Source of the DNA: Streptomyces sp. NBC_00483
GTDB lineage: Bacteria > Actinomycetota > Actinomycetes > Streptomycetales > Streptomycetaceae
Length of the DNA: 64,000 bases
Direction of reading: 5' to 3'
Assembly (NCBI RefSeq): GCF_036013745.1
Contig: NZ_CP107880.1
Span: 744,001 to 808,000 of the forward strand
Both the position numbers and the translations under genes were made by a program. How positions within the stretch are numbered: the stretch's first letter is position 1; each line of letters starts with the position of its first letter. The notes below the pieces were generated by a model. That model was not told the origin of the DNA. It worked only from the letters and a program-made list of their open reading frames with translations, and ran no database searches. This document shows, piece by piece, positions 3,108 to 55,422 of the stretch.

Positions 3108-4004
<897 letters not shown>

Positions 4005-43132: not shown

Positions 43133-43230
43133 CCGCAGCGCACGACCGGCCACAGCATTGCGACCGCCGCCCACTCGTGCCGGAGCGCCACCTTCGCCTA
43201 CCTGAGCACCTCCTGAGAATGTCTCCCAAA

Positions 43231-43254
43231 TTGTTGACACTTACGTTGACAGTT
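43231..43254. repeat. Two adjacent 12-bp repeats with GTTGACA upstream of tannase
   Basis: TTGTTGACACTT (43231-43242) and ACGTTGACAGTT (43243-43254) lie head to tail 60 to 83 bases before the tannase start. The core GTTGACA-n-TT also occurs, on the minus strand, at 50654-50665 in the gntR promoter (TCGTTGACAATT). They may be binding sites of the GntR regulator, or overlap a -35 element TTGACA. Confidence 0.5.
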
Positions 43255-43313
43255 GATGCCGTAGGTCCGGGGACGGGACTCGCTCGCCCCAAGAGCCACA
43301 CGGGAGCCACGAG

Positions 43314-44873
43314 TTGAAGCACAGGGCCATCAAGCGCAGAAACGTCATGATCGGGATCGGGGCGACCGCGGGCGCCGCGGTCGCAGGCGGCCTCACCCTG
43401 TCCGCGCAGGCGTCGACCGGAACCGCGTCCGACGAGCCTTCCGGCGCCCTCACGTTCGACACGGACGCCTACAAGGAGCTGACCGCGACCGTCACCACCG
43501 ACGACGGCGACAAGGAGGTGAAGTACCGCTTCTGGAAGGCGATCACCTATGTCGCCAAGCCGGTCGACGAGACGTACCAGAGCCTCAACGTGAGCGTGCC
43601 GGTGGAGATCGACGGCAAGGCGATCGACGCCTCCGACGCGCCCATCCTGTTCGCCAACTCCGTCGGCGGCTATATGCCGTCCTCCGTCGCGGACGCGGAC
43701 GGCGTAGGGGGCGGCGGCATGCCCGGTGGCGGCGGTGGCGGTGGCGGCGGCATGCCGGGCGGTGGCGGCGCGATGAACGCCAACCAACTGCTCGCCCTCG
43801 CCGCCGGATACGTCGTCGTGGAACCGGGAGCACGCGGCCGCACCCTCAAGGACGACGACGGCACGTACTACGGCACCGCGCCCGCCGCGATCGTCGACCT
43901 GAAGGCCGCCGTGCGCTACGTCCGCGCCAACAAGGGCCGCATACCCGGCAACACCGACCGCATCGTGTCCGCGGGCACCAGTGCGGGCGGCGCCCTGTCC
44001 TCGCTGCTCGGCGCCTCCGGCGACAGCAGGATCTACGCGAAGTACCTGTCCGACCTGGGCGCGGCCGACGCCTCCGACGCGATCTTCGCGACCAGCGCCT
44101 GGTGCCCCATCGCCGACCTGGAACACGCCGACGGCGCGTACGAGTGGAACTGGGGCGCCAACAAGCAGAGCAACGGCGAGCAGGTCGACCAGGCGACCTC
44201 CAAGCAGCTGCGGGCCCAATTCGCCGAGTACCAGGCCTCGTTGAGGCTGCGCAGGATCGACGGCCACGGACTGCTGACCGCCCGGAACTACGACGACTAT
44301 CTACTGACGCACTATCTGCAGCCGTCGGCCGCCCGCTACTTGAAGGGTCTGTCGGACAGCGACCGCGCCGCGTACCTCGCCGACAACACCTTCATCACGT
44401 GGCACGGCGGGCGGGCCACGTTCACGTGGGAGGACTTCCTCACGCACGTGGGCGCGCGCAAGAAGGACACGCCCGCCTTCGACCCGTTCGACCTGTCCGC
44501 CCCGGAGAACAACGAGTTCGGCGCGGGCACGACCGAGGCGCGGCACTTCACCGCGTACGGCGCGCGGCACGACACGTCCGGTCTGGACAGCAAGCGCGTG
44601 GCGTCGGACATCCCCGAGAAGCTCGACCTGATGAACCCGATGTACCACCTGGAGCGCCGCAACCCCGGTCGCTCCAAGCACTGGTGGATCCGGCTCGGCA
44701 CCAAGGACAGCGACACGTCGCTGACCGTCTCCGCCAATATCGCGGCGAGTGCGGCCGGGCTCGGTGACAAGGTCGACCACCTCTACTACTGGGACCAGGG
44801 GCACGGGGCCAACACCGATCCGGCGGACTTCATCGCGTGGATCGCCCAGGTGACGGGCCACAAGAGGAAGTAG
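43314..44873 (+). CDS. Exported subtype-B tannase-like esterase
   Basis: 519 residues. A twin-arginine-like signal (KHRAIKRRNVMIGIGATAG to SAQA, about 33 residues) leads to an alpha/beta hydrolase. Catalytic residues fit S223 (GTSAGG), D467 (TKDSDTSL) and H497 (DQGHGANTD), as in the Lactobacillus-type subtype-B tannases. An unusual Gly/Met-rich loop (about 135-155) interrupts the first third. It would free gallate from tannins or gallate esters outside the cell. The TTG start has GGGAG upstream. It converges on the gallate/protocatechuate operon with a bidirectional terminator between. Confidence 0.8.
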   Translation: MKHRAIKRRNVMIGIGATAGAAVAGGLTLSAQASTGTASDEPSGALTFDTDAYKELTATVTTDDGDKEVKYRFWKAITYVAKPVDETYQSLNVSVPVEIDGKAIDASDAPILFANSVGGYMPSSVADADGVGGGGMPGGGGGGGGGMPGGGGAMNANQLLALAAGYVVVEPGARGRTLKDDDGTYYGTAPAAIVDLKAAVRYVRANKGRIPGNTDRIVSAGTSAGGALSSLLGASGDSRIYAKYLSDLGAADASDAIFATSAWCPIADLEHADGAYEWNWGANKQSNGEQVDQATSKQLRAQFAEYQASLRLRRIDGHGLLTARNYDDYLLTHYLQPSAARYLKGLSDSDRAAYLADNTFITWHGGRATFTWEDFLTHVGARKKDTPAFDPFDLSAPENNEFGAGTTEARHFTAYGARHDTSGLDSKRVASDIPEKLDLMNPMYHLERRNPGRSKHWWIRLGTKDSDTSLTVSANIAASAAGLGDKVDHLYYWDQGHGANTDPADFIAWIAQVTGHKRK

Positions 44874-44890
44874 GCGCGACGCACGCGAGC

Positions 44891-44930
44891 CACTGTGGCC
44901 CGGCCCCCGCGAAGGGGCCGGGCCACAGTG
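44891..44930. terminator. Bidirectional terminator between tannase and MFS genes
   Basis: A perfect 17-bp stem, CACTGTGGCCCGGCCCC at 44891-44907 pairing with 44914-44930, with a six-base loop CGCGAA. It serves both convergent transcripts. Confidence 0.9.
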
Positions 44931-44943
44931 CCGTACGCACGGA

Positions 44944-46305
44944 TCAACCGGCCATCGCCGGCGCTCCCTTCCTGTCCCCGCTCCCCCGGTTCGCCCGGAC
45001 CCTGATGGTGAGCGCGGCCAGCGCCATCATCACCGCGCCGAACACGGCCGCCACGGCGAACATCGAGAAGCCCAGGTCCGCGTGGCCCGCCGCGAGCAGC
45101 TGACCGCCCATCCACGGGCCGAAGACGGCGCCGAAGCGGCCAATGCCGGAGACCCAGCTGAGCGCGGTGGGCCGGTCCTCCTCGACGTGGTGCGAGCCGA
45201 CCGTCGCGTACACCATCGTCTGGCCGCTGAACAGGAGCAGCCCGGCGAGGAAGACGACGCCGTACAGCACGACCACCGACATGTGTACGCCCATCAGGTA
45301 GACGAAGACCGCGGTCAGCGCGAACCAGATGATGACGATGCGGCGCGGGCCCACACGGTCGGCGAGGCGGCCCGCGACCAGCATGCCGACGATGCCGCCG
45401 ACGTTGAGGAACGTCGAGAAGAGCAGCGAGTCACCGGTGTCGTAGCCGAGGTCGCCCATGATCTTCGGCAGCCACTGGCCGACCCCGTAGACGAGCAGCA
45501 GGCCGGCGAACGACGTCAGCCAGAAGCACAGCGTCGTCAGCCACTGGCGGCCACGGAACAGGGCCTTGATGCTCTCCAGCTTGTCGGCGGCGTGCCCCTT
45601 GGGCTCGGGCAGTTCGAGGCCGTACGTGCCCGCGAGGGCCTGCGCGTCGCCGGTACGGCCGCGGGTGAGCAGGTTGGTCGGCGACTCGGGCAGCAGCTTC
45701 AGGGCCAGCGGCAGGAAGATCAGCGCGGGTATCGCGCCGACGAGGAAGGCCGAGCGCCAGCCGAAGTCGTCGATCAGCCACAGCGCGAGCAGCGGCGCGA
45801 CGGCGCCGCCGGTCTGGTGGGCGGTCATGATGACACCGGTCGCGAGCGCCTTGCGGGCGCCGGTGGTGAACTCCATCCCGTACGAGATGGCGATCGGCAG
45901 CAGCGCGCCGAGACCGAAGCCGCACACCAGGCGGAAGAAGCCGAACACCCCGGCGCTCTGGGCGAATCCGCAGCCGACGGTGGCGATGGTGAAGACGACG
46001 ACCGAGGTGAAGACGGTCTTGCGGCGGCCCACCCAGTTGCTGACGGTGCCGGAGAGGATCGTGCCGACCAGCATGCCGAAGGTGGTGTAGCTGCCGATGT
46101 CACCGGCGGAGGCGTCGGTCAGGCCGAGTGCCTTCGAACCGAGCATGTGCGGCAGCGCGGAGCCGTAGATGAACGTGTCGATGCCGTCGATGAACACCAG
46201 CGCCCAGCACAGGGCGATGACGATGGTGCGGCTGCGGCGGGACGGGTCCGCGGCGACGGCGGAGGCCGCGTTTTTGGGCAGGGCGGAGCGGTAACGCGAG
46301 GACAT
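44944..46305 (-). CDS. MFS aromatic-acid transporter
   Basis: 453 residues, 12 membrane segments, of the aromatic acid:H+ symporter (AAHS) group. The first loop has DGIDTFIYGSALP and the loop after helix 2 GTVSNWVGRRKT; the central loop is hydrophilic (about 215-245). It would bring gallate, protocatechuate or a related acid into the cell. It is last in the gntR-galBCD-dioxygenase operon. PcaK- or GalT-like specificity cannot be told apart from sequence. Confidence 0.87.
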   Translation of the reverse strand: MSSRYRSALPKNAASAVAADPSRRSRTIVIALCWALVFIDGIDTFIYGSALPHMLGSKALGLTDASAGDIGSYTTFGMLVGTILSGTVSNWVGRRKTVFTSVVVFTIATVGCGFAQSAGVFGFFRLVCGFGLGALLPIAISYGMEFTTGARKALATGVIMTAHQTGGAVAPLLALWLIDDFGWRSAFLVGAIPALIFLPLALKLLPESPTNLLTRGRTGDAQALAGTYGLELPEPKGHAADKLESIKALFRGRQWLTTLCFWLTSFAGLLLVYGVGQWLPKIMGDLGYDTGDSLLFSTFLNVGGIVGMLVAGRLADRVGPRRIVIIWFALTAVFVYLMGVHMSVVVLYGVVFLAGLLLFSGQTMVYATVGSHHVEEDRPTALSWVSGIGRFGAVFGPWMGGQLLAAGHADLGFSMFAVAAVFGAVMMALAALTIRVRANRGSGDRKGAPAMAG

Positions 46306-46369
46306 CGTTGTTCCTCTCGTCCGGGCGGTCCGGTGGCGGCCCGGTAAGGGTGGAGTGGGATACGCGGGG

Positions 46370-47323
46370 TCAGGGCTGAATCGGCGGGGTTCCGTGCGTG
46401 TGGAAGGACTCGATGGTCTTCAGGCCCCAGGCCTGCCCCTTCTTGCGCTCTTCCTCGGTCCAGGTGATGAGCGGCCAGTCGGGGGCGAGGACGAGGCGGG
46501 TGAGCGGGTTGCACAGCTCGATGCGGTTGCCGCCGGGCTCGTAGACGTAGAGGAAGAACGTCTGCTGGATGGCGTGCTTGTGCGGGCCGGTCTCGATGAA
46601 CACGCCGGTGTCGATGGCGAGATCGGCGGCGCGCAGGATGTCCTCGCGGTTGTCGGTCGCGAAGGCGATGTGGTGCAGGCGGCCGTTGGCGCCGGTCCAG
46701 TCCTCGGTGTAGACGACGTCGTACGACTTGTTGGTGAAGGTCAGCCACTTGCCGGCGATGCGCCCGGTGTCGAGCTGGATCTGCTCGGTGGGGCGGGCGC
46801 CGAGGACGTCCGACTGGAAGTCGGCGTTGAGCGCGACGTCCGAGGCGAGGAAGTTGACGTGGTCGAGGCGGCGGACGCCGACGCCGCGGTTGGGCTTGGC
46901 CTGCGGCTGGTTCTTGAGGGCCGGCTTCAGCTCGTCGGGGGCCCGGTAGTGCTCGCTGTCCCAGTAGAGGGCGAGTTCGTGGCCGTCCGGGTCGGTGGTG
47001 ACGAACAGCTTCCCGATGCCGGGCTCGTCCTCCGCCCAGTGCCCGGTGCCGCCGGACTCCTCGACCGCCTTGATGCGGCGCTGGAGCGCTTCCTCGCTGG
47101 AGGTGCGCAGCGCGATCCGGCCGAGTCCCGGCTGGTCGCGGGCGGTGAGGACGAGGCTGTGGTGCTCGTAGTCGTCGAAGGTGCGCAGGTAGACGCTGTC
47201 GCCGTCCTGGCCGCAGACGGTCAGGCCCAGGAAGTCCGTGAAGAAGCCGACGCTGGCGTCCAGGTCCGGGGTGAACAGCTGGGCGTGGCCGATGTGCGCG
47301 ATGTCGCCGAGGGGCGGAGTCAT
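46370..47323 (-). CDS. Type I (VOC) extradiol ring-cleavage dioxygenase
   Basis: 317 residues in two VOC modules. In the C-terminal module the Fe(II)-binding residues of type I extradiol enzymes fit His in LDHVNF, His in LHHIAF and Glu in RIELCNP. It would open a catechol-type ring next to the hydroxyls. Its neighbours make 4-oxalomesaconate-type chemistry likely, with gallate or protocatechuate as substrate, a role usually filled by the class III LigAB/GalA type, so this is unusual. It is coupled by ATGA to the tautomerase. Confidence 0.82.
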   Translation of the reverse strand: MTPPLGDIAHIGHAQLFTPDLDASVGFFTDFLGLTVCGQDGDSVYLRTFDDYEHHSLVLTARDQPGLGRIALRTSSEEALQRRIKAVEESGGTGHWAEDEPGIGKLFVTTDPDGHELALYWDSEHYRAPDELKPALKNQPQAKPNRGVGVRRLDHVNFLASDVALNADFQSDVLGARPTEQIQLDTGRIAGKWLTFTNKSYDVVYTEDWTGANGRLHHIAFATDNREDILRAADLAIDTGVFIETGPHKHAIQQTFFLYVYEPGGNRIELCNPLTRLVLAPDWPLITWTEEERKKGQAWGLKTIESFHTHGTPPIQP

Positions 47324-48459
47324 CGGGGACCTCCTGAGTTCTGTGCGGGGAGGGATGCGGTGTCGACGGTGCGCGGGAAGACCGTGCCGTCGAAGAGTTT
47401 TCGGGCCGTGCGGACGACGGCGGTGCGCCGCGGGGCGGGAAGTCCGTCGGGGCCCGTGGTGAGGCCGGCTTCGATGTCGGTGAAGCCGGTGGGGTGCTCG
47501 ATGCGCAACCGGTCTGCTCCCGTGGGTGGTTGGGCGATGCCGTCCGCCACACTGCCGTCCATCCACAGCCCCGCCGCCACGCTCGCCGCGCCGAGCACGC
47601 CGATGGAGGTGTGGCAGCGCACGGGGATGAACGTACGGGTGGTGACGGCGCCGCCGTGCCGGGGCGGGGCGAGCAGCGTCAGCTTGGGGACGGTGGCGTC
47701 GGAGACGTCACCAAGACCCATCAACTCACCGGCTTCCAGACGGATTTCACGGAGCCGTCGAGCCAGCCCCTGGTCCGCCTCCAGCTCCTTCGGGTCCTCG
47801 TAGCCGGTGACCTTCAGGGAGTCGGCAGGGATGAGCACAGTCGGCATGCCGTTGTCGACGCAGGTCACCTCGGTGCCGGCGACCGTGTCGCGGAGGTGCC
47901 CCGTCGGCAGCAACGCGCCCTCGCCCGGCGGGAATTCGATGACCACGGCGGCCGCGGTCCCCGGTACGCCGGATATCTCCGCGTCGCCCGTGTAGTCGAC
48001 CCGGCCGCCCGGCGTAGGGAACGTGGCCGTGGCCCGGTCACCGGAGTTGACCATGCGGATACGGACCGAGGTCTCCCCCTCCCCCGCGGACACCAGGCCC
48101 CGCTCGACCGCGAACGGGCCGATACCGGCGAGGATGTTGCCGCAGTTCTGACGGTCCGACACCACGGGTTCGTCGACGTTCACTTGGAGAAAGAGGTAGT
48201 CGACGTCGGCGTCCGGCTCGGCCGAAGGTGACACCACCGCGACCTTGCTGGTCAGCGGGTGGCCACCTCCAATGCCGTCGATCTGGCGCGGGTCGGGGCT
48301 GCCCATCACCCGCAGCAGCAGTTCGGCGCGGGCGGCCGGTTCGGCGGGCAGGTCCTCGGCCAGGAAGTAGGCACCCTTGGAGGTGCCGCCGCGCATCAGC
48401 AGACAGCGCACCTCATCGAACCGGGCCTCTTCCGACCCGGCCCCCTCCGCCCCGGTCAC
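47320..48459 (-). CDS. galD: 4-Oxalomesaconate tautomerase, PrpF/GalD type
   Basis: 379 residues with PrpF features: CLLMRGGTSKGAYFL near the N-terminus (the catalytic-loop region), DRQNCGNILAGIGPFA and VDNGMPTVLIP. Two Cys near the active site fit (DRQNCGNI and VTCVDNGMP). It would interconvert the keto and enol forms of 4-oxalomesaconate made by ring cleavage. GTG 48459 overlaps the upstream aldolase stop as GTGA; its stop overlaps the dioxygenase start. Confidence 0.85.
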   Translation of the reverse strand: MTGAEGAGSEEARFDEVRCLLMRGGTSKGAYFLAEDLPAEPAARAELLLRVMGSPDPRQIDGIGGGHPLTSKVAVVSPSAEPDADVDYLFLQVNVDEPVVSDRQNCGNILAGIGPFAVERGLVSAGEGETSVRIRMVNSGDRATATFPTPGGRVDYTGDAEISGVPGTAAAVVIEFPPGEGALLPTGHLRDTVAGTEVTCVDNGMPTVLIPADSLKVTGYEDPKELEADQGLARRLREIRLEAGELMGLGDVSDATVPKLTLLAPPRHGGAVTTRTFIPVRCHTSIGVLGAASVAAGLWMDGSVADGIAQPPTGADRLRIEHPTGFTDIEAGLTTGPDGLPAPRRTAVVRTARKLFDGTVFPRTVDTASLPAQNSGGPR

Positions 48460-49151
48460 GAGGTGTGTTCCTCGTACGTGCGGTACTCGACGCCGAGCCG
48501 CTTGAGGGTGTCGCGCAACCCGTAGCGGTCCAGGCCGAGTTGGCCCTCCAGGAAGGCGGCGCGGGTGGCGGCCTCCTTCTCCTCGCGGGCCTGGGACTTC
48601 TCCGCGGCCTCGGCGGCCCGTTCACGCGGCACGACCACCACACCGTCGTCGTCCGCGACGATGACATCACCGGGACGGACGGTCTCACCCCCGATGACGA
48701 CCGGGACGTTGACGCTGCCGCCGGTCGCCTTCACGGTGCCCTGCGCGGACACGGCGGCGGACCAGGCGTGGAAGCCCATCTCGCGCAGCTCGGACGTGTC
48801 ACGGATCCCGGCGTTGGTGACGATGCCGCGCACCCCGCGCTTCTGCAGCGCCGTGGCGAACAGCTCGCCGAACATGCCGTCGGTGGACGGAGATGTGGTG
48901 GTGACGACGAGGATGTCGCCCTCGCCGCACTGCTCCACGGCCGCGTGGATCATGAGGTTGTCGCCGGGCCAGGACAGCACGGTCACGGCGGTGCCGGCGA
49001 TGCGCGTGTCCTGCTGGTTGGGGCGCAGGTGGTGGCCGAGGAGGCCGGTGCGGCCCATCGCCTCGTGGACGGTGGCGACGCCGTACCCGGCGAGCGCCTC
49101 GACGTCCTTGGGCTCGGCCTTGGGCGGGTTGGTGACGATGACGCCGGGCAT
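48456..49151 (-). CDS. galC: 4-Carboxy-4-hydroxy-2-oxoadipate aldolase, RraA family
   Basis: 231 residues in the RraA/HMG-CHA aldolase fold: ATVHEAMGRTG, then TVLSWPGDNLMIHAA, GIVTNAGIRDT and VRPGDVIVADDDGVVVVP. Asp and Arg in NAGIRDT and the metal-binding Asp fit class II pyruvate aldolases. It would split the hydrated product into pyruvate and oxaloacetate. Its ATG shares one base with the stop of the hydratase gene. Confidence 0.87.
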   Translation of the reverse strand: MPGVIVTNPPKAEPKDVEALAGYGVATVHEAMGRTGLLGHHLRPNQQDTRIAGTAVTVLSWPGDNLMIHAAVEQCGEGDILVVTTTSPSTDGMFGELFATALQKRGVRGIVTNAGIRDTSELREMGFHAWSAAVSAQGTVKATGGSVNVPVVIGGETVRPGDVIVADDDGVVVVPRERAAEAAEKSQAREEKEAATRAAFLEGQLGLDRYGLRDTLKRLGVEYRTYEEHTS

Positions 49152-49903
49152 CAGGCGAGCTCCTTCGCGATCTGCGGGTACGGGCGCATGTACGCCTCGG
49201 CCATGGTCTTGTGGGCGAGCCCCAGGTTGGGCCCCGCGTTGCGCTTGAGCTGCACACCTCGGCGTACGGCCAGGTCGGTGTAGTACTCCCACAGGTGCTG
49301 CTGGGCGCCCAGGCACTCCATGGCCTTGCGCTTGGTGTCCCAGACCTCGGTGATGTCGAGGAGGACCTCGGGCTTGAAGCCGCTCATCTCGGGCTGGTGC
49401 GGCTCGAAGTAGAAGACGGGCGGGGCGCCGATGATCTCGCCCTCGCCGGGGTAGCCGATGGCCTGCGCGAGGACGCGGGCCTGCAGGGCCATGCGGTTGG
49501 CGGCCGGGTGGTCGCCGTTGTACGGGTCCTCGACCGGGTGCGTGAGCACGACGTCGGGCTGGGTGTCGCGGTAGACCGTGACGAGCCGGTCGGTCAGCTC
49601 GGCGGTCTCGACGAGGGGGTAGTCACCGGCGTCAAAGAAGTGCACGTCGGCGCCGAGCGCGGCGGCGGCCCGCTCCGCCTCGTCGCGGCGCAGCGCCTTG
49701 ATCTCGTCGAGCTTCTTGCCCTCCCGCCAGGCCTTGGCGGACTCGCCGCGCTCCCCGAACGTCAGGCACGCGATGCTCACCTTCTCGCCGCGGGCGGCGG
49801 CGAGCGCGATGGCACCGCCGGCCCGCCACACGAAGTCCCCGGCGTGCGCGGTGACCACGAGGATCGATCGTGGCGGGGTGGCGGGCACGTGGCCGTTGGT
49901 CAT
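49151..49903 (-). CDS. galB: 4-Oxalomesaconate hydratase, PIG-L/LmbE type
   Basis: 250 residues. The PIG-L/LmbE zinc motif is seen as AHAGDFVWRAGG (an AHxD-type block, with Gly before the Asp) and the second His as HPVEDPYNGDHPA. GalB enzymes of this family add water to the enol form of 4-oxalomesaconate. The ATG follows TAGGAGAT. The set of galB, galC and galD types with no LigJ-type hydratase matches the gallate pathway of Pseudomonas putida. Confidence 0.85.
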   Translation of the reverse strand: MTNGHVPATPPRSILVVTAHAGDFVWRAGGAIALAAARGEKVSIACLTFGERGESAKAWREGKKLDEIKALRRDEAERAAAALGADVHFFDAGDYPLVETAELTDRLVTVYRDTQPDVVLTHPVEDPYNGDHPAANRMALQARVLAQAIGYPGEGEIIGAPPVFYFEPHQPEMSGFKPEVLLDITEVWDTKRKAMECLGAQQHLWEYYTDLAVRRGVQLKRNAGPNLGLAHKTMAEAYMRPYPQIAKELA

Positions 49904-49951
49904 TGCTGCATCTCCTAGGTGACAGGTGTGCGGCCCGCCCCCGGTGCAACG

Positions 49952-50605
49952 TCAGTCGGCGCTCAACACGTCGATCACACTGCGGAGGTGGGCGCGGACG
50001 GCCGTCTCGGCCGCCTGCGGGTCCCTGGCGCGGATCGCCTCGATCATCGCCAGATGCTCGCTCAGGGACTGCTGCGAACGCCCCGGACGCAGCGCCAACT
50101 GGAAGCGGTGACGCACCAGTTGGGCGTTGAGCCGCTCCAGGAGCCCGACGGCCGTGTGCTGGCCGGAGATCTCCCGGATGCGGGCGTGCAGCTCGTGGTT
50201 GAGGTCGGAGTAGGTGAGCGGATCACCGTCCGCGACCGCCTTGGACATGGCGTCACCGAGCCCAGTGAGCTCGTCGAGCTGCGCGTCGGTGGCCTCCTCT
50301 GCCGCCTTGGCCGCGCACAGCCCTTCGAGTGCCATCCGGCACTCGGTGATCTCCACGGCCTCCTCGACCGTGACGACCCGCACCCGCGAGCCGCGGTTAC
50401 GGATCCGCTCGACCAGGCCTTCCGCGGCCAGCTCGAGCAGCGCGGCACGGATACTCGCCCGCGTCACGTCGTACTGCTCGGCGAGTTCGTTCTCCACCAG
50501 CCGCTGAGCCGGTGACATCTCGCCGCGCAGAATCGCCTTCCGCAGCTGATCGAGCGCGTACTGCTTGGCCTGCTCTCCGGAGCCCGGACGGGCTTCCTCC
50601 GGCAT
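49952..50605 (-). CDS. GntR-family (FCD) regulator of the aromatic operon
   Basis: 217 residues, FadR-like layout. Winged helix about 10-75 (ALDQLRKAILRGEMSPAQRL, then EQYDVTRASIRAALLELAAEGL), FCD domain with helical His/Asp residues (SDLNHELHARIREIS). It is the first gene of the six-gene operon on the minus strand, 48 bases from galB. It likely represses the operon and itself; the ligand would be a pathway metabolite. Confidence 0.87.
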   Translation of the reverse strand: MPEEARPGSGEQAKQYALDQLRKAILRGEMSPAQRLVENELAEQYDVTRASIRAALLELAAEGLVERIRNRGSRVRVVTVEEAVEITECRMALEGLCAAKAAEEATDAQLDELTGLGDAMSKAVADGDPLTYSDLNHELHARIREISGQHTAVGLLERLNAQLVRHRFQLALRPGRSQQSLSEHLAMIEAIRARDPQAAETAVRAHLRSVIDVLSAD

Positions 50606-50645
50606 CTGCCCTCCCTGAGTGAGTGCGTGTCGACGCTAAATCTAG

Positions 50646-50675
50646 GCGAACAGAATTGTCAACGATTTTGTTCGC
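50646..50675. promoter_or_regulatory. GntR operator region
   Basis: GCGAACA at 50646-50652 and TGTTCGC at 50669-50675 form an inverted repeat around AATTGTCAACGA (50654-50665). This core, read on the other strand, is the GTTGACA-n-TT element seen twice before the tannase gene. Confidence 0.6.
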
Positions 50676-50754
50676 AACCTGTCCGCACGCTTCGACCGGT
50701 CGCCGGCGACCCGCACGACGGCAGCACGTCTCAACTTCCCTTCCCACACCACGA

Positions 50755-50776
50755 GTTCACCCCTTGTACGCTTCCG
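50755..50776 (+). promoter_or_regulatory. Candidate PHO box upstream of the phytase
   Basis: GTTCACCCCTT is followed by GTACGCTTCCG. The first 11-mer agrees with the Streptomyces PhoP direct-repeat unit; the second is a weak match. It starts 102 bases before the phytase start. Phosphate-starvation control of a phytase would make sense. Confidence 0.45.
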
Positions 50777-50856
50777 CTTCGGGCACCACCCCCTTCCCCC
50801 TCACACCAAGATCACAGAATGCATCCGCCATGCTCACGCCATGAAGGAGCTTTCAC

Positions 50857-52140
50857 GTGGCCACTCCACGGACGTCCCTGCTGGTCCTCGCCACCACCGT
50901 CGCCGCGCTCGCCGTGACCACGACGGGCCCGGCCCAGGCCACCCCACGGGCTCTGCCCGCCGTCGCGCCGCGCGCCGAGACCGCCGCCCTGCACGACGAC
51001 GCCGCGGGCGGTGACGCGGACGCCGACGACCCGGCGATCTGGCGCAACCCCGCGGACCCGGACCGCAGCCTCGTCGTCGCCACGGCCAAGCAGGGCGGCC
51101 TGCGCGTCTACGACCTCGACGCGCACGAGGTGCAGTCGCTGCCGGCCCCCGCGGGACCCGGCGCCGACGACGCGCCCGGCCGGTTCAACAACGTCGACCT
51201 GGTCCACAGCGCCGGCCTCGGCGACCTGGCGGTGACCTCGGACCGCGGCAACGACCGGCTGCGCTTCTACCGCATCGACCGCGACCACGCCGGCGGCCCG
51301 CTCACCGACGTCACCGACCCCAAGGCGACCCCGATCTACTCCGGCTCCCAGGACGAGATCAACGAGCAGCGCACGGCGTACGGCCTGGCCACCTGGACGG
51401 ACAAGGCGAGCGGCCGCTCGTACGCCCTGGTCAGTCAGCGTGAGCGCACCCGCCTCGCCCTCCTGGAGCTCAAGGGCAACGCCGACGGCACGGTCGGCTA
51501 CACCAAGGTCCGCACCCTCGACCTGCCGTCCTCCTTCCGACTCCCGAACGGCGCCACCTGGTCACCCTGCGGCGAGCCCGGCGAACTTCCGCAGGTCGAG
51601 GGCATGGTGGTGGACCCGGCGACCGGCACGCTCTACGCCGGCCAGGAGGACGTCGGCATCTGGCGGCTGCGCGCCGACCTCACCGGTGCACCGAAGCTGA
51701 TCGACAAGGTGAAGGAGTACGGGGTTCCGGGCACGTACGACGAGGCGACCGAGGAGTGTGTCGCGGGCGCCGACCCGGGCTTCGGCGGCAAGCGCCTCAC
51801 CGCGGACGTCGAGGGCCTGACCCTGGTCACCGAGAAGGACGGCGACGGCCTGCTCCTCGCCTCCAGCCAGGGCGACAACACCTTCGCCGCGTACGACCGC
51901 GAGGTCTCCGACGCGAACGAGTACGAGGGCGGCTTCCGCGTCACGCCCGCATCGGCGGAGCTCGACGGCTCCGAGGAGTGCGACGGCGCCGCCGCACTGA
52001 ACGAGCCGCTGGGCCGCCGCTACCCGAACGGTCTGCTGGTCGTGCAGGACGGCCACGACGCCCCGGGCGAGACGGACCGCCCCTCCACCAACTTCAAGTT
52101 CGTGGACCTGGGCGCGGTCACGGACGCGGTCGACGACTGA
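50857..52140 (+). CDS. Secreted beta-propeller phytase
   Basis: 427 residues with a Sec signal (about 1-29, ending GPAQA). The six-bladed beta-propeller phytase pattern is seen: DDPAIWRNPADPDRSLVVAT, NNVDLVHSA, QVEGMVVDPATGTLY, DVEGLTLV and GRRYPNGLLVVQDG, with acidic residues for calcium. It releases phosphate from phytate outside the cell. GTG 50857 follows AAGGAG. Its end overlaps the convergent MarR gene by 23 bases. Confidence 0.88.
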   Translation: MATPRTSLLVLATTVAALAVTTTGPAQATPRALPAVAPRAETAALHDDAAGGDADADDPAIWRNPADPDRSLVVATAKQGGLRVYDLDAHEVQSLPAPAGPGADDAPGRFNNVDLVHSAGLGDLAVTSDRGNDRLRFYRIDRDHAGGPLTDVTDPKATPIYSGSQDEINEQRTAYGLATWTDKASGRSYALVSQRERTRLALLELKGNADGTVGYTKVRTLDLPSSFRLPNGATWSPCGEPGELPQVEGMVVDPATGTLYAGQEDVGIWRLRADLTGAPKLIDKVKEYGVPGTYDEATEECVAGADPGFGGKRLTADVEGLTLVTEKDGDGLLLASSQGDNTFAAYDREVSDANEYEGGFRVTPASAELDGSEECDGAAALNEPLGRRYPNGLLVVQDGHDAPGETDRPSTNFKFVDLGAVTDAVDD

Positions 52141-52588
52141 CGGCCTCGGCGGGCCGCTCGTCGAACGGCCCGCCCCACGGAGCCTCCAGCGCCGCACGCA
52201 GCCCGCCGAGCACCTCCTCCCCGATGCGCTCCGCCAGCCGGGCCTCGAGACCGTCCAGGGCCCGCCGCGCCCGCTCATGGGCGCGCCGCCCCTCCGCGGT
52301 ACGGCGGACCAGGCGCTGCCGGGCCGACGCGGGGTCCGGCACCTGCTCCAGGAGGCCGTCGTCGATCAGGGCGCGGACGGCCTGATGGACGGTCTGCCGG
52401 GTCACGCCCATGCGGCGGGCCAGCTCGGAGACGGTGGTGCCGTCCGCGTCGAGCATCGCGAAGAGCTGCACCTGGGTGGGCGTTATCGGCGCCACACCCT
52501 GCGCCTCCAGAGCCGCGAGCAGCCCGTCCTCGAACCAGCGCCGGGCGTCACCGAGGAGCTGCGGCAGATCACGTCGGGGCTGGCTCAT
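52118..52588 (-). CDS. MarR-family regulator of the quercetinase operon
   Basis: 156 residues, winged helix about 40-105 (ITPTQVQLFAMLDADG, VSELARRMGVTRQTVHQAVR, PDPASARQRLVRRTAEGRRA). It is divergent from the cupin/esterase pair with two near-perfect palindromes between, so it should repress both. The effector is likely a flavonoid. Confidence 0.85.
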   Translation of the reverse strand: MSQPRRDLPQLLGDARRWFEDGLLAALEAQGVAPITPTQVQLFAMLDADGTTVSELARRMGVTRQTVHQAVRALIDDGLLEQVPDPASARQRLVRRTAEGRRAHERARRALDGLEARLAERIGEEVLGGLRAALEAPWGGPFDERPAEAVSRRPRP

Positions 52589-52695
52589 CACTTCTTCGTC
52601 CTCCCGGACTCCCGGATTTCTCGGCACAGGCCCTGCCCTTGCTCTTGCCCGTCGACCCCTTGCTTGTCGACCTCTTGCCTGTCGACCGCTTCACA

Positions 52696-52734
52696 TGTCA
52701 GGCTACCTGACACAGAACGTCAGGCACCCTGACA
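52696..52734. promoter_or_regulatory. Two MarR operators
   Basis: TGTCAGGCTACCTGACA (52696-52712) is a perfect 7-3-7 palindrome. CGTCAGGCACCCTGACA (52718-52734) is the same with one end changed. Centres are 22 bases apart, about two helical turns. Confidence 0.8.
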
Positions 52735-52752
52735 CAGGCAAGGATGATCCGC

Positions 52753-53310
52753 ATGACCATGGAGTTCGCGACGCGCTACCGCAGCGCCTCCCGCATACCG
52801 GCCGACCCGTCGAAGCCGTACGTGATCGAGAAGGGCGAGGGCGACCGGGCCCACCTCTTCGGCGATCTCGTCACCGTCTACGCGGGCGGCGAGCAGACCG
52901 ACAACACCTTCAACTTCTTCACCGTCGAGGGCCCGAAGGGCGACATCATCCCGGCGCATGTGCACGCGGACACCCACGAGGTGTTCTACGTGACGCAGGG
53001 CGCGGTCCGGCTCTTCGCCGAGGACCCCGAGGGCGAGCAGCTGGAGCGCCTGCTCACGCCGGGCGACTTCGGTTTCGTGCCGAAGAACTGCGCGCACGCC
53101 TACCGCATGGAGCGCCACCACTCCCAGGTCGTCGGCGTCGCCGCGGGCCCCGGCGGAACCTTCGAGCGGTTCTTCGAGACGCTGGGCACACCGGCGGAGG
53201 AAATGGGCCTGCCGGCCCGGCCGTTCGTCCCCGAGCCGCACAAGTTCGGCACGGTCCCGCAGGAGTACGACGTGCGCTTCCTGCCCGACCACCAGTGGCG
53301 GACCTCGTGA
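52753..53310 (+). CDS. Cupin quercetin 2,3-dioxygenase-like
   Basis: 185 residues, a cupin of the QdoI/quercetinase group. Metal-binding residues are in IIPAHVHADTHEVFYVTQG and the second motif PKNCAHAYRME. The enzyme would open the flavonol heterocycle with release of CO, giving a depside. ATG 52753 fits AAGGA 8 bases upstream; ATG 52744 lies on that site. It overlaps the esterase start as GTGA, so the product may pass to it. Confidence 0.82.
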   Translation: MTMEFATRYRSASRIPADPSKPYVIEKGEGDRAHLFGDLVTVYAGGEQTDNTFNFFTVEGPKGDIIPAHVHADTHEVFYVTQGAVRLFAEDPEGEQLERLLTPGDFGFVPKNCAHAYRMERHHSQVVGVAAGPGGTFERFFETLGTPAEEMGLPARPFVPEPHKFGTVPQEYDVRFLPDHQWRTS

Positions 53311-54179
53311 CGCCGGGCGAACTGCGGCAGTTGATCGCCGCGCCGCACCCGGACGTCACGCCGCTGCCCCGGTCGACCGAGTACGCGGGTGGCGTGCGCG
53401 CGCTGCGCGGCGTCCCGTACGCGGACGTGGAGGGCGCCCGCCCGCTGGAACTCGACCTGTGGCTGCCCGCGTCGGCGGGCCCGGCGCCGCTGGTGCTGTT
53501 CGTGCACGGCGGGGCGTGGCGGCGCGGCCGGCGTGACGACATGGGTGTGCGTACGCGGGGGTGGGCTCCCGGCCCGTTCGAGCAGCTCGCGGCGGCGGGC
53601 CTCGCGGTGGCCTGCGTGGACTACCGGCTCAGCGGCGAGGCGACGTTCCCCGCGCCGCTGGAGGACCTGCGGTCGGCGCTGCGCTGGCTCGGCCTGCGCG
53701 CGGACGAGTTGGGCATCGACCCCGAACGCACCGTCGTCTGGGGCGAGTCGGCGGGCGGCCATCTGGCCTCGCTGCTCGCGCTCACGCACGACGAGCCACG
53801 GCTCGCGGGAGCGGTCGTCTGGTACGGCCCTGCGGACCTGACGACGGCGCGGCCCCCGTTCGATCCGGCCAACCCGGCCACGCCCGAGGCGCTGCTCCTG
53901 GGTGACGCCCCATCTTCGGTGCCCGAACTGGCGGACGCAGCAAGCCCGTTGAAACGGGTGCACGCGGACGCACCGCCCTTCTTCGTCGTGCACGGCGAGG
54001 CCGACTCGATGGTGTCGTGCTCCCACGGCCGTGACCTGTCGGACGCGCTGCGGGCGGCCGGGGCGCCGGTCGAGCTGCGGACGGTGCCGGGGGCCGACCA
54101 CGGCTGGCACGGCGCGGACGACGCCGAGGTCCGGCGGATCTTCACCGCTTCCCTGGACTTCGTACGGCAGCACACCTGA
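53307..54179 (+). CDS. Alpha/beta hydrolase (esterase), probable depside esterase
   Basis: 290 residues: HGGAWRRG (oxyanion), catalytic Ser in WGESAGGH, Asp in HGEADSMV and His in GADHGWHG. It resembles acetyl-esterase/BD-FAE-type enzymes without signal peptide. Coupling to the quercetinase suggests it splits the depside into protocatechuate and a phloroglucinol carboxylate. That role is inference. Confidence 0.8.
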
Positions 54180-54252: not shown

Positions 54253-55422
54253 ATGAGCCCGCAGTTCGGCGACTACCAATTCGAGATCTACCTCGACGGA
54301 CTGCGGGGCGTCACGCCCTCGCAGCCGATGGACTTCGCCACCCTCGAACAGCGGGCCCAGGCGGCCCTCTCCCCCTCCATCTGGTCCTACGTCGCCGGGG
54401 GCGCGGGCGACGAGCACACGCAGCGCGCCAATGTGCGGGCCTTCGAGCGGTACGGACTCGTGCCCCGGATGATGGTGGGTGCCACGCAGCGCGACATGTC
54501 CGTGGACCTGTTCGGGATGCGCCTCGCCTCACCGCTGTTCATGGCGCCGGTCGGCGTGATCGGGCTGTGCGCGCAGGACGGACACGGAGACCTGGCGACG
54601 GCGCGGGCCGCGGCGCGCACCGGTGTGCCCATGGTGGCGTCGACACTGACGGTCGACCCGATGGAGGACGTGGCCGCCGAGTTCGGTGACACACCTGGCT
54701 TCTTCCAGCTGTACACACCCACCGACCGGGCGCTCGCCGAAAGCCTCGTCAAGCGGGCGGAGGCGGCGGGCTACAAGGGCATCGTGGTCACGCTCGACAC
54801 ATGGGTCACCGGCTGGCGTCCACGCGACCTGTCGACCTCCAACTTCCCGCAGCTGCGGGGCCATTGCCTCGCCAACTACATGTCGGACCCGCGCTTCCAG
54901 GAGATCGCCGCGAGCACCGACCCCACGGACCTCGTACGGTCCTGGGTCGGCCTCTTCGGCAATCCGCTCACCTGGGACGACCTGCCGTGGCTGCGCTCGC
55001 TCACCGATCTGCCACTGATCCTCAAGGGCATCTGCCACCCCGAGGACGTGCGCCGTGCCAGGGACGGCGGCGTGGACGGCATCTACTGCTCCAACCACGG
55101 CGGCCGCCAGGCCAACGGCGGCCTTCCCGCGCTCGCCGCGCTGCCGGGAGTCGTCGAGGCGGCGGAGGGCATGCCAGTGCTCTTCGACTCCGGAATCCGC
55201 TCGGGCGCCGATGTCATCAAGGCGCTCGCGCTGGGTGCCACGGCGGTGGGCGTCGGGCGCCCGTACGCGTACGGACTCGCGGTCGGCGGCGACGACGGCC
55301 TCGTGCACGTCCTGCGCTCCCTGCTCGCCGAGGCCGACCTGATCATGGCGGTGGACGGCTATCCGACCCTGGCGGACCTGACACCGGAGGCGTTGGTGAA
55401 GTCGGGTCCCTACGGCGATTGA
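54253..55422 (+). CDS. FMN-dependent alpha-hydroxy acid oxidase, lactate 2-monooxygenase type
   Basis: 389 residues, TIM-barrel FMN enzyme. Catalytic His is in [12 protein letters not shown]; Arg and Lys for FMN are in [12 protein letters not shown] and [13 protein letters not shown]. The N-terminus has a substrate-cap segment ([18 protein letters not shown]) and [14 protein letters not shown] is the lactate 2-monooxygenase-like part. It may oxidise L-lactate or another 2-hydroxy acid. ATG 54253 follows GAAGAGG. Confidence 0.85.

Follow-up and report, generated by a model that had tools for sequence, protein, structure and literature searches.

The stretch of DNA analysed here, called the window throughout, comprises 64,000 nucleotides (744-808 kb of the 10.24 Mb single-contig genome of Streptomyces sp. 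NBC_00483) and carries, next to a tannase gene, a six-gene operon for a GntR/FCD regulator, the enzymes GalB, GalC and GalD, a ring-cleaving dioxygenase and an MFS transporter. These genes very probably constitute a gallate regulon in which the tannase, the transporter, GalBCD and a VOC-type gallate dioxygenase, a non-orthologous replacement of the LigB-type GalA, are under GntR/FCD control. In particular, the tannase, probably exported, would free gallate from hydrolysable tannins and the MFS protein would bring it into the cell. The dioxygenase, as the position of its gene and the replacement pattern suggest, would open the gallate ring to 4-oxalomesaconate, which GalD, GalB and GalC would convert to pyruvate and oxaloacetate. 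The regulator would act through the sequence ATYGTTGACAAT on its own operon, on tannase genes and, in many relatives, on the transporter gene, and its release would be due to gallate or a gallate product.

Organization of the operon

All the genes named in an earlier note on this DNA (tannase, six-gene operon with GalB, GalC and GalD, dioxygenase, transporter, phytase, quercetinase and its esterase) are present (Table 1). The operon runs on the minus strand from 50605 to 44944 in the order GntR-GalB-GalC-GalD-dioxygenase-MFS, with a gap of 48 bases between the GntR gene and galB and one of 64 bases between the dioxygenase and MFS genes; galB and galC overlap by 1 base, galC and galD as well as galD and the dioxygenase gene by 4 bases each. 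All three enzymes of the gal pathway, GalB, GalC and GalD, are recognized in the operon by profile and structure-sequence matches.

A type I dioxygenase with a changed active site

In profile searches the dioxygenase matches Glyoxalase/VOC families only and falls outside the LigB superfamily. It is closest to solved type I extradiol enzymes, and the two-domain VOC fold with its 2-His-1-Glu iron site is present; the AlphaFold model (45 sequences, pLDDT 81.8, with residues 137-145 and 300-317 poor) best matches AphC and 3lm4. The second-sphere catalytic His of type I enzymes, His200 in HPCD, is replaced by Tyr201, which aligns with it gap-free from the preceding conserved Trp. BphC His194 is presumably equivalent to HPCD His200, and the H200F variant of HPCD cleaves intradiol. 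In the excerpts of PMC3962378, DesB His192 and BphC His194 are called essential in both extradiol enzyme types.

The change is shared by a whole group of proteins. The close dioxygenase set, made up of 120 protein rows and 87 rows from loci (in part the same genes, and overlapping partly with the tree rows), shows Lys199 and Tyr201 throughout its 207 rows, and in a second protein set Lys and Tyr occur in all 116 rows covered, of 120. A 49-row tree joins the 35 rows with Tyr201 in one clade (support 97/95); the other 14 have His. At least one of galB, galC and galD lies nearby in 29 of 32 clade rows, the remaining 3 of the 35 being proteins without known context, and gal genes are found in none of the 8 contexts outside the clade (7 tree rows and L125, near twin of row L115).

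As a proposal for the His-to-Tyr swap, the demand for this His could be relaxed with gallate, since the cleaved bond is flanked by hydroxyls on both sides: intradiol and extradiol cuts would give the same product, so that a His directing extradiol cleavage would be less needed. We consider it likely, with less confidence than the regulon itself, that this clade, which occurs in Actinomycetota, Pseudomonadota and Deinococcota (Thermus) and whose members now go by 'catechol 2,3-dioxygenase' or 'VOC family protein', represents a second type of gallate dioxygenase, of independent origin, that opens the ring with Tyr in place of the catalytic His, because both cuts of the pyrogallol acid lead to one product.

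Sister to the clade stands a branch of Embleya and G641 (L148, L194) that has Lys199 with His201 and no gal genes nearby; it is possibly an intermediate in a change of function.

Proposed replacement of LigB-type GalA

In a class-wide survey covering 394 genomes (cut-offs 1e-40 for galB, 1e-80 for VOC and 1e-40 for the LigB-type query), 23 matched galB, 19 VOC and 12 the LigB type. The VOC gene lies within 4 kb of galB in 14 of the 23 galB genomes, and a LigB-type gene within 5 kb in 5, two of them GalA-like (G386 and G422, 64-65%) and three LigAB-like (G379, G470 and G585); both types close to galB are found in none of the 23. Of the four galB genomes that remain (G401, G412, G520 and G561), the loci of the first two were read: a 28% LigB relative adjoins galB in G412, and G401 has no ring cleaver in the 12.8 kb examined and a LigB-type match on another contig. 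VOC occurs without galB at this threshold together with galC and galD in G246, G479 and G660, with galC in G565, and with none of them in G641 (46-47%, His).

In G386 (L206), GalA stands beside galD, galC, galB and a 61% relative of the GntR regulator. In Pantoea piersonii (L136), galD-galC-galB are accompanied by genes for a LysR regulator, an MFS transporter and the VOC enzyme; Klebsiella aerogenes (L155) has an MFS gene, a LigB-type gallate dioxygenase, a LysR gene and galBCD, and the GalB proteins of the two are 84% identical. Plasmid records with GalD number 235; from these, two without VOC (Klebsiella L155 and Azospirillum L156) were chosen by hand.

The genome of the strain itself has 5 LigB-family matches, and a Klebsiella GalA query gave no match in it at 1e-40. 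The NCBIfam check covered three of the five proteins (L006, L008 and L010, leaving out L007 and L009): L006 and L010 were rejected as GalA, with a best score of 108.9 against 412 for the gallate-dioxygenase model, and L008 has no match to this model.

Conservation and spread of the cluster

From 570 relatives found, the 80 best (84-92% identity) were taken as the related loci, 79 titled Streptomyces and one 'Actinobacteria bacterium OV320'; some are cut at contig ends, so neighbour counts are lower bounds. At an identity of at least 50%, VOC is present in all 80, GntR and galD in 79 each, galC in 78 and galB in 77. The gallate core thus recurs in these loci, the full island with phytase and quercetinase being rare. 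In a sample of 111 Streptomyces genomes the dioxygenase is present in 28, one of these having a 43% relative only.

The linkage to gal genes extends beyond the genus. Among 116 plasmid records with a VOC homolog, 22 loci were fetched, picked to span genera. At least two of galB, galC and galD lie nearby in 14 of the 17 loci with homologs of at least 52% identity, namely in Nonomuraea, Pantoea piersonii, three Agrobacterium, three Rhizobium, one Pararhizobium, strain UR115, Roseibium, two Thioclava and Thermus oshimai (galB and galC); at 44% identity or less, gal genes are nearby in 0 of 5 loci. In the same way, six further genomes with 52-53% homologs all have at least two of the three genes, galB and galC, and gal genes are found in neither of the two loci with genome homologs at 43% and 38%.

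Streptomyces sp. A108 (L017, L083) and CB02400 (L068, L082) have two gallate-operon loci apiece, one with a tannase and an MFS protein 72-75% like that of the window and the other with a 48-50% MFS protein. In Thermus oshimai and in six actinobacterial genomes (L138, L119-L124), VOC, galB and galC are adjoined by a DUF1932-like oxidoreductase, 29-34% like its Klebsiella counterpart. As the latter goes with the gallate cluster of Klebsiella, the protein may play a part in the gallate pathway that has so far gone unrecognised.

Tannases and operators

In alignment with solved tannases, the tannase of the window retains the GTSAGG, K..E, D-x-D and QGH motifs, and its N-terminus resembles, by eye, a twin-arginine export signal. 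This subtype B enzyme falls outside PF07519, the Pfam Tannase family, which has no match in the strain's own genome and likewise none in control genomes. Tannase-like genes lie beside the cluster in 10 of the 80 loci, 7 of them subtype B-like and 3 PF07519-like (L022 and L056 checked), and 70 loci have none within the DNA examined, these being counts for the 80 loci. The window's own type (at least 50% identity) occurs in 4 of the 80 loci, and the tannases of L047, L059 and L072 score above the NF041556 cut-off. Outside these loci, an Agrobacterium from walnut has a tannase beside the cluster, and tblastn alone places one there in G589 and in G660.

In the GntR promoter the palindromic core ATYGTTGACAAT overlaps the -35 element, and the 8-mer GTTGACAA is found in all 80 upstream regions taken, that of the window among them. 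A scan of the 80 loci and the window (1.625 Mb, at most one mismatch) gave 141 operator sites: 80 lie no more than 130 bases from a GntR start, 54 follow the VOC gene at a distance of up to about 140 bases and 7 are found within 300 bases upstream of tannases (window, L044, L047, L059, L065, L068 and L072); the core occurs at no other place in these 1.625 Mb. Behind the VOC gene, 45 of the 54 sites adjoin a called MFS-like frame (44 in the main MFS cluster and one in a small cluster that is MFS-like by eye) and 9 have no frame; six MFS frames as called start up to 51 bases ahead of the site.

The 14 tannase-like starts comprise 7 with a site, 2 with a two-mismatch site, 4 with none and L056 with the GntR promoter site only, the starts being alignment starts and the distances to sites therefore approximate. 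The crude expectation near tannases is 0.14 sites, the 54 sites behind VOC being counted as background there. Taken alone, the window has 2 sites at up to two mismatches against 0.89 in shuffles, hence its tannase site is persuasive only jointly with the relatives. With 7 of the 61 operator-like sites outside GntR promoters lying upstream of tannases, that of the window included, the claim of the earlier note that tannase and gallate operon serve a single function is strongly supported: the tannase-gallate part is a real regulon.

A short leader around CACTCACTCAGGGAGGGC upstream of the GntR gene (50606-50632 in the window) is near-identical in about 75 of the 80 upstream regions, perhaps beyond the need of a ribosome-binding site alone.

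Weighing of the assignment

Several observations weigh against a gallate regulon built around a VOC dioxygenase. The 80 loci are closest relatives, so that their agreement comes partly from shared descent, and in the window itself there is one mismatch in the tannase site and no separate site for the MFS gene. With its catalytic His lost, the enzyme might carry out a different chemistry. Clade members of Roseomonas, Methylobacterium and Pantoea At-9b have no galB, galC or galD within 6 kb, and in Thermus oshimai and the six actinobacterial genomes mentioned above VOC, galB and galC occur without galD nearby. An additional 41% LigB-type match lies elsewhere in G479 and G660, in the latter 13 kb from the VOC gene. 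In Roseomonas mucosa (L133, 5977-6969) the Tyr-type VOC gene has as neighbours the genes of a LigB-type dioxygenase, an amidohydrolase resembling LigI and a DUF1932 protein, again with no galB, galC or galD within 6 kb.

As for the substrate, GalB, GalC and GalD are common to gallate and protocatechuate breakdown, and the operon could serve protocatechuate 4,5-cleavage if the dioxygenase made 4-carboxy-2-hydroxymuconate semialdehyde (CHMS), which enzymes with genes at other places would have to oxidise and then hydrolyse as a lactone before it reached GalB. An Azospirillum cluster pairs the three with LigA, LigB, a Gfo/Idh/MocA oxidoreductase and an amidohydrolase, a 4-hydroxybenzoate 3-monooxygenase gene lies near the Thermus copy, and according to the excerpts of PMC8431788 gallate is also turned over by a LigB-type protocatechuate dioxygenase that has been characterised. 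Nevertheless, protocatechuate cleavage is very unlikely here: the six genes include no dehydrogenase, lactonase or LigAB-type dioxygenase, the tannase has the same operator core, and the genome encodes a PcaG-type protocatechuate 3,4-dioxygenase alpha subunit (TIGR02423, 173 against a cut-off of 126) with a second PF00775 match adjoining. Azospirillum LigC and LigI probes found no match in any of the 80 loci, an absence that weighs less since they also missed three actinobacterial LigAB loci (L205, L207 and L208). The proposal of the earlier note that quercetin-derived protocatechuate feeds the gallate operon is likewise unsupported, as none of the six genes resembles the CHMS dehydrogenase LigC or the PDC hydrolase LigI and the genome has the 3,4-dioxygenase. 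The natural substrate might be 3-O-methylgallate (from syringate) or another pyrogallol acid, given that 3-O-methylgallate routes also reach 4-oxalomesaconate, that most loci show no tannase-like gene in the DNA examined and that O-demethylases nearby are conceivable, the flanking genes having been clustered only; this is improbable, though marginally less so than protocatechuate, in view of tannases, whose product is gallate, that carry the operator core and adjoin the cluster in several taxa. Gallate is thus the best-supported substrate, because genes for the two extra steps of protocatechuate are absent from the operon and tannases lie beside the cluster.

The score of the dioxygenase for the TIGR03211 'catechol 2,3-dioxygenase' equivalog (about 328-329.2) is just above the cut-off of 320.2, a point against the gallate assignment, and its modelled fold appears closest to the catechol-type AphC and 3lm4; that it is a true catechol 2,3-dioxygenase merely adjoining gal genes is nonetheless scarcely credible, considering the gal-gene linkage across phyla, the lack of any genome with both VOC and LigB-type genes close to galB, the Tyr at the catalytic His position, and the fact that catechol-pathway genes, dmpG and that of acetaldehyde dehydrogenase, instead adjoin 42% relatives from T. 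thermophilus and Rhodococcus PD04. The whole 43-54 kb region could be one coordinated polyphenol-phytate island, in a variant of which quercetinase and esterase act on myricetin, with a depside releasing gallate for the operon. Myricetin carries a trihydroxyphenyl ring; all parts of the island are found in L044 (Streptomyces sp. HmicA12), the only one of the 80 loci where it is complete within the DNA examined, and most in L019, and a GntR site sits in the intergenic region of the phytase. Quercetinase chemistry yields a depside, as stated in the excerpts of PMC4416304. The full island is rare, as quercetinase and phytase occur in 2 of the 80 loci each and the window's tannase type in 4; esterase and MarR genes are also present in 2 each and the FMN oxidase in 3. 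Upstream of the quercetinase, MarR and FMN genes there is no operator core within 400 bases at up to two mismatches, and the quercetinase is adjoined by a MarR gene. The only upstream site of the phytase at up to two mismatches is the GntR site of the region common to the divergent GntR gene, through which GntR may have an effect on it. A coordinated island is therefore unlikely, if less so than the other substrates: of the one locus for tannins, flavonols and phytate proposed in the earlier note, the tannase-gallate part stands, and the links to quercetinase and phytase are unsupported. On present evidence phytase and quercetinase-esterase are outside the gallate regulon, and the FMN oxidase gene and, probably, the MarR gene belong with the quercetinase side.

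Relation to known systems

The gallate regulon of the window resembles the P. putida KT2440 gal cluster (galTAPR-galBCD), as described in the excerpts of PMC9942251, in GalB, GalC, GalD, the MFS transporter, the proposed substrate and the 4-oxalomesaconate intermediate; it differs in having a type I VOC enzyme instead of the LigB-type GalA, a GntR/FCD regulator instead of the LysR-type GalR, and a tannase with the same operator core. The reaction proposed is that of GalA and DesB, type II enzymes of the LigB superfamily (PMC4250580 and PMC3962378, both in excerpts), with a different fold and superfamily; DesB keeps its catalytic His192 where the clade appears to have Tyr, an equivalence that is in part assumed. 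AromaDeg (PMC4250580) places gallate dioxygenases in LigB. AphC (7q2a), 3lm4 of RHA1, HPCD (1f1x) and catechol 2,3-dioxygenase (1mpy) are type I enzymes as well, from which the clade differs by Tyr201 (His200 in HPCD), Lys199 and a gal context rather than the catechol meta pathway. The closest solved sequence is PDB 9wgj (E 7.6e-110), deposited as 'Catechol 1,2-dioxygenase', which shares the KSYD motif and probably belongs to the Tyr clade. The tannase has the family and catalytic motifs of solved subtype B tannases (NF041556; 6yq4, 3wa6) and is an actinobacterial one in a gallate regulon.

No type I gallate dioxygenase is described in the titles, abstract starts and passages returned by the literature searches. 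It is possible that there is prior knowledge in the Rhodococcus opacus gallate work or behind PDB 9wgj; a gallate cluster of R. opacus is attributed to Cai et al. 2021 in the excerpts of PMC9942251. If the assignment is true, the name of a large protein family would be corrected, a key step of tannin and gallate breakdown would have undergone non-orthologous replacement across phyla, and gallate breakdown would be ascribed to about a quarter of Streptomyces, some of which also have tannases in this regulon. The clade would also be a natural case of a lost extradiol-directing His, and the dioxygenase a new part for gallate sensors and for lignin or tannin conversion.

Features of the window and neighbouring genes

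Table 1. Genes and regulatory elements in the region of the gallate operon (window positions; scores are given with the model cut-off)
Feature	Position	Strand	Basis or remark
GntR operator-like core before the tannase	43230..43241	+	1 mismatch to ATYGTTGACAAT; 84 bases ahead of start
Subtype B tannase (TanB), probably exported	43314..44873	+	TTG start; NF041556, 522.9 bits (cut-off 300)
MFS transporter of aromatic-acid/H+ symport type, putative gallate importer	44944..46305	-	TIGR00895, 272 bits, under cut-off 418
Extradiol dioxygenase of type I (VOC), candidate for gallate cleavage	46370..47323	-	Tyr201 at catalytic His position
galD, 4-oxalomesaconate tautomerase	47320..48459	-	NF033377, 496 (cut-off 440)
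galC, 4-carboxy-4-hydroxy-2-oxoadipate aldolase	48456..49151	-	NF006731, 329.6 (cut-off 179)
galB, 4-oxalomesaconate hydratase of PIG-L type	49151..49903	-	Nearest solved protein 5cgz, '4-oxalmesaconate hydratase', E 1.7e-79
GntR/FCD regulator, first gene of the operon	49952..50605	-	PF00392, PF07729
Operon promoter	50633..50671	-	-35 TTGACA 50662-50657, -10 TAGCGT 50638-50633 (by eye)
Inverted-repeat operator	50650-50671	-	Overlaps operon promoter
Beta-propeller phytase	50857..52140	+	PF02333, 172.8 (gathering score 21); signal-like N-terminus (by eye)
MarR regulator, probably for the quercetinase module	52118..52627	-	
Quercetinase, Streptomyces QueD type (monocupin)	52744..53310	+	PDB 5fli, E 5.9e-106; 184 residues
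Alpha/beta esterase, putative depside esterase	53307..54179	+	PF20434, PF07859
FMN-dependent alpha-hydroxy acid oxidase family	54253..55422	+	PF01070

The placement of the dioxygenase outside the GalA/LigB family, the operators, the MarR gene and the FMN oxidase gene are additions to the content of the earlier note. The quercetinase is like Streptomyces QueD (5fli), with nothing notable different, and its frame overlaps that of the esterase by 4 bases. About 40 kb away, at 3465-3995, the window contains a gene of the intradiol dioxygenase family (PF00775, E 6.2e-67), which is its second aromatic ring-cleavage gene.

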